This document shows positions 5,695 to 41,296 of a stretch of 64,000 bases of DNA, in pieces. Source of the stretch: Spartobacteria bacterium (lineage in GTDB: Bacteria > Verrucomicrobiota > Verrucomicrobiia > Chthoniobacterales > UBA10450); assembly GCA_003167365.1 (NCBI GenBank), contig PMTM01000007.1, forward strand, positions 1 through 64,000, read 5' to 3'. How positions within the stretch are numbered: position 1 is the first letter of the stretch; each line of letters starts with the position of its first letter. A program made the translations under genes and the position numbers. The notes under the pieces were generated by a model. That model saw only the letters and a program-made list of their open reading frames with translations, had not been told where the DNA came from and made no database searches.

Positions 5695-5752
5695 GTAGAG
5701 CGCGTGTTCTCACGCGAAGCTAAGAATTGCGGCTGGGGATAGCCGCCACTAC
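5695..5752. repeat. gtag...ctac palindromic repeat (copy 2)
   Basis: Two nested inverted pairs (GCGCGTG...CACGCG and GCGGCT...AGCCGC) between GTAG and CTAC ends. It fills the space between the terminator and miaA. Confidence 0.7.
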
Positions 5753-5761
5753 ACCTGATTT

Positions 5762-6670
5762 GTGAGGAATGTCTTTTTCATCGTCGGCCCGACCGCTACA
5801 GGAAAATCTGAGCTCGCCGCGGACGTAGCGCGCGCGATCGGCGCGGAAATTGTCAACGCAGACGCGTTTCAAATTTATCGTGGCCTCGATCTTCTCACGG
5901 CGAAACCCGACGCGGCCACGTTAGTAAAAGCGCCGCATCACTTGCTCGGGACGATGCCGATCTTTGAAGAGATGAACGCGGAAAAGTTTCGCCGCGAAGC
6001 ATTGCGCGTCATCGAAGAAATTCACGCACGGGAGAAATTGGCCATTATCGTTGGCGGCAGCGGTCTCTACATCAAGGCGCTGACGCACGGTTTGTCCGCC
6101 GCGTCGGCGCCCGATCCGAAACTGCGGGCAGAGCTTGATGAGTTAACGCTTGAGCAGTTGCGAAGCCGGCTGGTCGATCTTGATCCGAAAATCGCGGGCA
6201 AGATCGATATGAAGAATCGACGCCGGATTGTGCGCGCGCTGGAAATTTGTTTGGCTACGGGCAAAACTGTAGCCGCGGTCGCTGACCGCGGCCCGCGACC
6301 ACCGGTCGCGGCTACACCAGACGGCGTATTTGTTTTTCGAAACCGCGAGGAGCTTCATGCGCGAATCAATCAGCGCGTGGAAGCGATGTTTGAAAAAGGC
6401 GTGATCGAAGAAGTGCGAGCAATTGCGGAGGTTGGAGCGACGGCGGCCAAGACAATCGGCTTGCGCGAAATTCGCGAACATCTCGAAGGGAAGACGTCGA
6501 TTTCGCAATGCATTGCCGCCATTCAACAGGGAACCCGCCGTTATGCCAAAAGGCAATTGACCTGGTTCCGTCACCAAACTAGCTTCGAACAGCTGAACTT
6601 ATCGCTTCTAACTCACGAAGAAGCCGCCGAAGGGATTTCGCAACGAGCGTCGCTCGTAGCCAAGGGATGA
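5762..6670 (+). CDS. miaA: tRNA dimethylallyltransferase
   Basis: 302 aa, GTG start. It adds a dimethylallyl group to N6 of A37 in tRNAs that read UNN codons. P-loop GPTATGKSE is at 9-17, followed by NADAFQIYRGLD and GGSGLYIKAL, all typical of MiaA. The C-terminus has RRYAKRQLTWFRHQ. Residues 170-186 (VAAVADRGPRPPVAATP) are encoded by a copy of the gtag...ctac palindrome sitting in frame, in the region between the conserved RRIVRALEI and the RINQRV segments where MiaA proteins vary. The stop overlaps the hflX ATG (ATGA), giving a miaA-hflX operon. Confidence 0.93.
   Translation: MRNVFFIVGPTATGKSELAADVARAIGAEIVNADAFQIYRGLDLLTAKPDAATLVKAPHHLLGTMPIFEEMNAEKFRREALRVIEEIHAREKLAIIVGGSGLYIKALTHGLSAASAPDPKLRAELDELTLEQLRSRLVDLDPKIAGKIDMKNRRRIVRALEICLATGKTVAAVADRGPRPPVAATPDGVFVFRNREELHARINQRVEAMFEKGVIEEVRAIAEVGATAAKTIGLREIREHLEGKTSISQCIAAIQQGTRRYAKRQLTWFRHQTSFEQLNLSLLTHEEAAEGISQRASLVAKG
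6269..6315. repeat. gtag...ctac palindromic repeat inside miaA (copy 3)
   Basis: 47 bp, GTAGCCGCGGTCGCTGACC at the left and CCGGTCGCGGCTAC at the right, lying in frame in miaA. The flank CTACACCAGACGGC is shared with the intergenic copy at 26280-26340. Confidence 0.75.
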
Positions 6671-7938
6671 TCGAGACACGCCCGCAAAAAACACACGAGC
6701 GCGCAATCCTGATTGGACTGGAACACGGAGGTGTTTCGAAATGGGATTTGCGCGATTCGATGGAAGAACTAGCGGAGCTGGCCCATTCGGCCGGTGCGGA
6801 AGTGGTTGATACGGTCACGCAAAAATTACAGAAACCGACCGCGCCTTATTACATCGGCAAGGGCAAAGCCGAATCGATCAAGGATTCCATCCAAGATCGA
6901 CAAGTGACTTCGGTGATTTTCGATGACGAACTTTCACCGGCGCAGGGGCGCAATTTGGAAACCTTGCTCGCGCGCAAAGTTCTCGATCGTACGCAACTGA
7001 TTCTCGACATTTTCGCGCAACGCGCGCGCAGCCGTGAGGGCCGCTTGCAGATCGAGCTCGCGCAGTTGCAATATCTTTTGCCGCGGCTAACTCGGATGTG
7101 GCATCACCTCTCGCGGCAGACCGGCGGTATCGGCACACGCGGTCCCGGTGAAACGCAGTTGGAAGTCGATCGTCGCCGCGTCCAGGAACGGATCTCGCGT
7201 TTGGAACGCGAACTCGAATCCGTGCGCAGAACCCGCGCGGTGCAACGGCAAGGCCGCAAGCGTCATCAATGGCCGGTCGCGGCGGTGGTTGGTTACACGA
7301 ACGCGGGCAAATCGACCCTGCTAAATTTGCTCACCGGCGCGGATGTCGTGGCCGCGGACAAACTTTTCGCCACGCTCGATCCGACCACTCGGAGTTTTAC
7401 TTTGCCGAACAAGCAGCGTGTCCTGCTCACCGACACGGTCGGTTTTCTGCGGAAACTTCCGCACACATTGATCGAGTCGTTCAAAGCGACGCTCGAGGAA
7501 GTAAGCGAAGCCGACTTACTGATTCACGTTGTCGATCTTAGCCATCCGCGCGTGGACGAACAGATGGAAGCGGTCGATAAAGTAATCAAAGAACTCGACG
7601 CATTTGGAAAACAGACGCTGATTGTTTTTAACAAGATCGACAATCTGGCGAACAGGGAGCTGGCGGAAGCTTATGTGAGCAGGTTCCACAACAGCGTCGC
7701 GATCTCCGCGCGCACCGGCGAAGGCGTGAGCAAACTCGTGAGCGCCTTGCAAGAGGCGCTTAGTTCCTGGCGATTGCGGTTACAGTTTCGCCTTCCCGCG
7801 AAAGAATCGGCATTGATGGCCGAAATTCATCGCGTCGGCCACGTGCTTGAGTTGCGTTACGAAGACGAGAACGCGTTGATTGTCGCGCATGTTCCGCCGC
7901 ATCTCGAAGCGAAGCTCGCGCCGTTCTCTGAACCGTAG
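6667..7938 (+). CDS. hflX: GTPase HflX
   Basis: 423 aa. The N-terminal HflX domain contains YYIGKGKAE and FDDELSPAQGRNLE; a Gly-rich GGIGTRGPGETQLE segment then leads to the GTPase with G1 GYTNAGKST (209-217), G3 DTVGF and G4 NKID. HflX is a ribosome-binding GTPase that splits stalled or stress-inactive 70S ribosomes. The ATG overlaps the miaA stop, so translational coupling is likely. A palindromic repeat starts just after the stop. Confidence 0.93.
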   Translation: MIETRPQKTHERAILIGLEHGGVSKWDLRDSMEELAELAHSAGAEVVDTVTQKLQKPTAPYYIGKGKAESIKDSIQDRQVTSVIFDDELSPAQGRNLETLLARKVLDRTQLILDIFAQRARSREGRLQIELAQLQYLLPRLTRMWHHLSRQTGGIGTRGPGETQLEVDRRRVQERISRLERELESVRRTRAVQRQGRKRHQWPVAAVVGYTNAGKSTLLNLLTGADVVAADKLFATLDPTTRSFTLPNKQRVLLTDTVGFLRKLPHTLIESFKATLEEVSEADLLIHVVDLSHPRVDEQMEAVDKVIKELDAFGKQTLIVFNKIDNLANRELAEAYVSRFHNSVAISARTGEGVSKLVSALQEALSSWRLRLQFRLPAKESALMAEIHRVGHVLELRYEDENALIVAHVPPHLEAKLAPFSEP

Positions 7939-15774: not shown

Positions 15775-15833
15775 GTAGCGGCGCGCTATGAGCGCCGAAT
15801 CCGAAAACAACGGTGGTCATAGACCGCCGCTAC
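15775..15833. repeat. gtag...ctac palindromic repeat (copy 7)
   Basis: GTAGCGGCGCGCTATGAGC at the left and ATAGACCGCCGCTAC at the right. It lies between the convergent oxidoreductase and rpmI genes, 3 bp from the rpmI stop codon. Confidence 0.7.
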
Positions 15834-26279: not shown

Positions 26280-26340
26280 GTAGAGGCGGCTGTCCTCAGC
26301 CGCAGAACTAAAGCCTGCGCGTGGGGACACGCGCCACTAC
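26280..26340. repeat. gtag...ctac palindromic repeat (copy 8)
   Basis: The clearest copy: GGCGGCTGTCCTCAGCCGC and GCGCGTGGGGACACGCGC hairpins between GTAG and CTAC, followed by ACCAGACGGC as in the miaA copy. Confidence 0.8.
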
Positions 26341-41037: not shown

Positions 41038-41296
41038 ACGATTGCCTTTGGGGAAGATTATTTCCACGCTGGGGAACATGCCTCGGAATATGAATCCCGT
41101 CGTCGAGGCGAACAAGGCAAAACTCCCCGATCAGCGTTCCAGTTGATTATCTTTGGCCTAAGAAATTCTGTAGCGGCGGTCTATGACCGCCGAAAATAAA
41201 TTAGCTCCGGCGGTCGTAGACCGCCGCTATAATCAGAACGCCGACCGGCAACGCTATCTATAATAGAATTAGGCTGCAAAATGCGGCATAATCCTC
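41038..41296. other. Non-coding turn-point of the array
   Basis: Together with the repeat before it this makes a gene-free stretch of about 350 bp between oppositely directed cassettes. It holds a gtag...ctat palindrome (41170-41230), a short AT-rich part and no convincing gene. Confidence 0.5.
41170..41230. repeat. gtag...ctac-type palindromic repeat (copy 9)
   Basis: GTAGCGGCGGTCTATGACC at the left and CGTAGACCGCCGCTAT at the right; same subtype as 15775-15833. Confidence 0.7.

Follow-up and report, generated by a model that had tools for sequence, protein, structure and literature searches.

A palindromic repeat that lies in frame within miaA, the gene for tRNA dimethylallyltransferase, raises the question of what this DNA is and how it became part of a protein. 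REPINs are non-autonomous elements whose mobility is attributed to RAYT transposases. Our analysis of the window, i. e. the whole stretch of 64,000 nucleotides from a Spartobacteria bacterium, together with the rest of its genome and related genomes, leads us to a reading that we hold with considerable confidence: A GTAG-tagged REP doublet (REPIN) entered the linker of MiaA, and this linker is a permissive site that recurs in the family and is filled by the palindromic DNA of each lineage.

The element in miaA

The locus has the following features, with positions counted from the first base of the window:

5762..6670, stop codon included (+): miaA, tRNA dimethylallyltransferase, 302 amino acids, GTG start, assigned by profiles, structure model and Foldseek
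6267..6268 (+): CT dinucleotide immediately 5' of GTAG
6269..6315 (no strand assigned): REP doublet (REPIN/BIME type), GTAG-hairpin-1 nt-hairpin-CTAC, in frame in miaA, residues 170-186
6269..6291 (+): REP unit 1, GTAG CCGCGGTC GCT GACCGCGG
6293..6315 (-): REP unit 2, inverse orientation, GTAG CCGCGACC GGT GGTCGCGG
6667..7938 (+): hflX, neighbour and control gene

The original prediction of a palindromic repeat in frame within miaA holds with its limits: The segment runs from the first base of GTAG at 6269 to the last base of CTAC at 6315 and reads GTAG CCGCGGTC GCT GACCGCGG C CCGCGACC ACC GGTCGCGG CTAC, and the frame is open throughout, element included. Both 23-nt units form a perfect 8-bp stem with a 3-nt loop, and the two hairpins stand head to head in the 47-nt element with a GTAG tag at the outer foot of each; the tag at the hairpin foot and the doublet of inverse units are both REP/REPIN features. 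With DNA parameters, the element strand folds with -22.6 kcal/mol (z -5.8), and none of 200 shuffles was as good. In the miaA frame, unit 1 reads GTA GCC GCG GTC, i. e. VAAV, and residues 170-186, encoded by the repeat as had been claimed, have the sequence VAAVADRGPRPPVAATP, which is rich in Val, Ala, Pro, Arg and Asp.

The host protein belongs to the MiaA family by profile (Pfam IPPT, 5.8e-74; NCBIfam TIGR00174 (miaA), 4.8e-70) and by fold: The AlphaFold2 model (mean pLDDT 93.6) matches the tRNA-bound MiaA of E. coli (3foz) with a TM of 0.85 in Foldseek. Since the frame is open and the family matches are strong, the element peptide is presumably translated within MiaA. Modelling of the loop, which had been proposed as a check, placed the element in the least confident part of the protein (residues 171-190, pLDDT 66-79), between a helix at 170-174 and a strand at 187-192.

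The repeat was surveyed by genome-wide pattern searches and in a 464-kb sample of the genome, and the claim that the segment is a repeat copy was borne out. An exact copy of the 23-nt unit 1 is present at G000:C7:78376 in the same genome, and the genome-wide search with this unit gave 59 matches at up to 3 mismatches versus none for the reversed control, i. e. the many dispersed copies typical of GTAG REPs and REPINs. In the 464-kb sample, no other tetramer precedes a hairpin as often as GTAG does (10.5 per 1000 versus a median of 0.37), and GTAG/GTGG hairpins number 31 as compared to 4 in one block-shuffled control. Moreover, a CT stands directly before GTAG in 54 of 83 units, as opposed to 17 of the 199 GTAG sites of the window; a CT beside the tag is the cleavage site of characterised TnpA(REP) proteins (PMC8266576). 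Finally, the source genome carries a RAYT (Y1 transposase) gene with REP flanks: A RAYT-like gene of about 154 amino acids at G000:C24:98514 matches PF01797 in a profile search, its product has the HUH-type motif MPDHIHLF as well as a YVRDNPTRAGF motif, and it is flanked by GTAG hairpins of a related REP type but of a different subclass from the miaA element. Because of the dispersed copies, the association of GTAG with hairpins, the CT preference and the RAYT-like gene, we identify the miaA segment as a GTAG REP doublet; it has those defining features of such doublets that were assessable.

It might be argued that this is an ordinary variable MiaA linker in which the palindrome is coincidental: The loop is variable everywhere, and its length here is similar to that in distant bacteria. 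This idea is almost certainly wrong, as it is contradicted by the fold z of -5.8 and by relatives whose short linkers are free of such palindromes, and refuted by the dispersed copies.

A further claim concerned the right flank, said to be common to the miaA element and the intergenic element at 26280. Indeed, CTACACCAGACGGC occurs exactly twice genome-wide, at positions 6312 and 26337 of the window. As evidence of origin, however, this flank is weak, because the 26280 element belongs to a different REP subclass (GTAGAGGCGGCTGTCCTCAGCCGC) and because only CTAC(A) within CTACACCAGACGGC is element sequence, the terminal GGC being a native codon, that for the Gly of the GVF motif found in relatives. 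The common flank is probably a coincidence, and we reject it as proof of a common origin.

Similarly, the description of the repeat as inserted is correct in that the element is present in the linker, but native residues have also disappeared: The linker has 25 residues versus about 22 in relatives with an empty linker, a net gain of about three, so that a simple insertion can be rejected. Since the aligned linker of E. coli MiaA has about the same length as that in the species of the window, the REP appears to have replaced the linker here rather than merely lengthened it. We propose that the REPIN entered at residues of about 168-187, which link the helical part to the strand that returns to the core. 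It would have arrived by RAYT-mediated single-strand transfer and survived since it left the reading frame open and its peptide was harmless in the loop; the displaced native residues may have been removed by a concomitant or later deletion.

The MiaA linker across the family

MiaA was recovered from most of the 83 genomes of the family. Linkers of 20-24 residues were found in the outgroups, in the genera g7, g8, g9, g10 and g12 and in most members of g6 and g4, and linkers of 25-59 residues in g1, g2, g5, g13, nearly all of g14, three genomes of g6 and one of g4. Conservation of the segment in the MiaA of distant bacteria, which would have refuted the insertion, was not observed: The short linkers of the outgroups and of several genera of the same family are non-palindromic and contain no element. 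A fold z below -3 was obtained for 0 of 30 short but 21 of 40 long linkers.

By blastn, the linker inserts fall into 12 sequence clusters. Since some clusters differ only by divergence within one REP type, we count at least six rather than twelve unrelated palindrome types in the MiaA linker; examples are CTGTAGCCGCCTCGCT...GGCTACAG, GTCATCCCGAG...CTCGGGATGAC and GGCACAGGCATCTTGCCTGT..., and the insert of G012 carries GAGCTCCTGCGA...TCGCAGGAGCTC. Some linker palindromes have neither a GTAG tag nor similarity to the other types, and four element types are multicopy in the same or in sister genomes. As unrelated palindromes, some of them devoid of GTAG, fill the same linker, what recurs is a permissive site and not one element. 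The linker may thus act as a sink for whichever palindromic mobile DNA a lineage carries: The GTAG types were probably brought by RAYT action and the remaining types by other means, elements that disrupt the reading frame or impair the enzyme would be lost, and the survivors would be inherited, decayed, trimmed or exchanged. A target preference of a transposase at the MiaA linker is a possibility, but the co-occurrence of unrelated types is better explained by tolerance than by the preference of any single transposase for this target.

Traces of such fates can be seen among the inserts. Some inserts in g14 are clearly inherited, being 81-88% identical between species; other miaA inserts look exchanged. 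In G058 and G061, the element is still preceded by the native QRTQW motif, which suggests that insertion came first and trimming later. Decayed palindromes are found at the MiaA site in G058, G061 and G074. In L018 and L029, a second sequence (SASAKATADKP-like) is apparently nested in the REP-derived linker of miaA.

On a linker-masked tree, we counted 7 gains or losses for presence and absence and 20 changes of element type; the MiaA protein tree is only partly resolved and the number of independent gains is therefore approximate. A different history would be one old insertion in the ancestor of much of the family that later diversified, was exchanged with other copies of the REP by gene conversion, and disappeared from part of the lineages. 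Several observations are compatible with this: The g14 linkers have common TGTAGCC and GGCTACAGG ends yet contain two element types, the G046 insert is 88% identical to a dispersed copy in its own genome and thus closer to it than to any match in G044, the G013 insert is equally close to dispersed copies and to the miaA insert of G016, and paired changes distinguish the hairpin arms at the same site. Nevertheless, we consider a single old insertion unlikely, as the empty state is found in basal positions and in many scattered genera, native linker sequence persists beside the inserts in G012 and G020, an empty root is favoured by the Sankoff counts with each of the three cost schemes tried, and some types have neither the GTAG tag nor any similarity to the others.

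It is also conceivable that the hairpin is kept for a role in the miaA mRNA or DNA, such as attenuation, stability or protein binding, and that the peptide is incidental. The hairpins are strong, and REPs are often transcribed (PMC3733652). This explanation is improbable, however, given that the palindromes at the site are unrelated to each other and in part decayed, that many relatives have no palindrome there at all, and that the same REP subclass is found in many unrelated genes.

A general laxity of the miaA neighbourhood is unsupported: In the adjacent hflX, only one insertion of at least 5 amino acids was found among about 45 relatives. In G046, hflX has a 25-residue insertion (GAGGSRATWTGKPERVDEPGG...; L004), the DNA of which is partly palindromic.

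REP subclasses inside and between genes

The subclass of the miaA element is intragenic in 36 of 47 units and the other main one, the TAT-loop subclass (GTAGCGGCGGTCTATGACCGCCG), in 5 of 43, with gene calls that come from a simple codon-usage score and not from a published gene finder; the Fisher p of 2.6e-10 is a guide only, since the units are paired and hence not independent. Hosts of the miaA-type subclass include RimO, PurL (twice), DnaE, a DNA ligase, IleRS, LeuRS, YchF, a UvrD/PcrA-like helicase and a pyruvate dehydrogenase fusion; three further hosts, AlaRS, a family-B polymerase and a histidine kinase, were named from their sequence only. As in miaA, the element is in frame in rimO, ychF, the ligase gene, ileS, leuS, alaS, purL and dnaE. 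In alignments with PDB chains, RimO and the ligase have gaps at the element, and YchF has an unaligned stretch there. The units oriented with the gene occupy the single stop-free frame (VAGV...), in agreement with the prediction from the unit translations.

MiaA is not the sole acceptor. Elements also recur in the linker of RimO, which carries the miaA-type subclass in at least six genomes (G000, G001, G017, G018, G060 and G063). This linker lies between two domains (loci L279-L308), and in two more genomes (G006 and G075) it contains an RPTPN-type repeat.

These observations allow a stronger reading, according to which the family harbours a REPIN lineage adapted to genes, with a few protein linkers, those of MiaA and RimO, as favoured places of docking where unrelated palindromes settle anew and replace each other over evolutionary time. 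The traits of gene adaptation would be the open frame, the linker-like peptide and a spacer that is a multiple of 3 in none of 16 doublets, the last being suggestive only as spacer lengths recur among these doublets. We regard this reading as possible but doubtful, and prefer a permissive linker.

Intergenic REP doublets of other subclasses are present in the window at 15775-15833, 26280-26340 and 41170-41232, the first and the last of which are part of the main intergenic population, that of the TAT-loop subclass. Another one (GTAG...CTAC) at 5695-5752, again of a different subclass from the miaA element, ends about 10 bases before the start codon of miaA.

Relation to known elements

Intragenic GTAG REPs have been described before, and they are most numerous in Opitutus terrae, a member of the Verrucomicrobia (Di Nocera et al. 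2013, PMC3733652). They resemble the miaA element in the GTAG tag, the short stem-loop, the head-to-head doublets and the phylum, they lie in frame within genes of repair, replication and translation, and flexible linkers were suggested for them. In that study, one common site is reported, in recB of two Xanthomonas, and most other genes have the REP at different sites; in contrast, here one site is occupied in many genomes and by unrelated elements. The main text of PMC3733652 does not mention miaA, and occurrence in miaA of Opitutus is possible.

The comparison with Rickettsia palindromic elements (RPEs) that had been drawn is apt insofar as these, too, are selfish palindromes within conserved genes that have come to be tolerated as protein (PMC2229807); for the RPE host protein Gmk, translation and activity have been shown (Ogata et al. 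2000, as reviewed in PMC2229807). It fails for the element itself: RPE-4 and RPE-6 of R. conorii are CGTC-tagged according to PMC3733652, no dedicated transposase is known for them, and other RPEs are 105-146 bp long (PMC2229807), whereas the miaA element has 47 nt, a GTAG tag and no CGTC tag, and its genome carries a RAYT gene. The REPIN/RAYT systems of Pseudomonas and E. coli are alike in doublet layout, GTAG, CT beside the tag and RAYT gene, but their REPs are extragenic as a rule, as opposed to the mainly intragenic subclass found here (PMC3116915, PMC8266576).

Our literature search for palindromes in miaA or in Udaeobacter found nothing relevant. As far as the literature searched shows, two findings are new: that across a bacterial family one MiaA linker has been filled repeatedly by unrelated palindromes, and that one REP subclass resides chiefly in coding sequence. 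The linker is a natural replicated experiment on the conversion of mobile DNA to protein, in which the same enzyme loop has been filled several times by different selfish palindromes, with empty relatives alongside, and it makes testable whether such sites are tolerant or targeted and whether some REP lineages are adapted to coding sequence. For annotators, VAGVADPG-like stretches in proteins of these bacteria can be recognised as REP-derived. The pyruvate dehydrogenase fusion (L251, G000:C14:7200-11300) is a single long open frame with parts of E1 alpha, E1 beta and E2, and it contains two closely spaced REP doublets.
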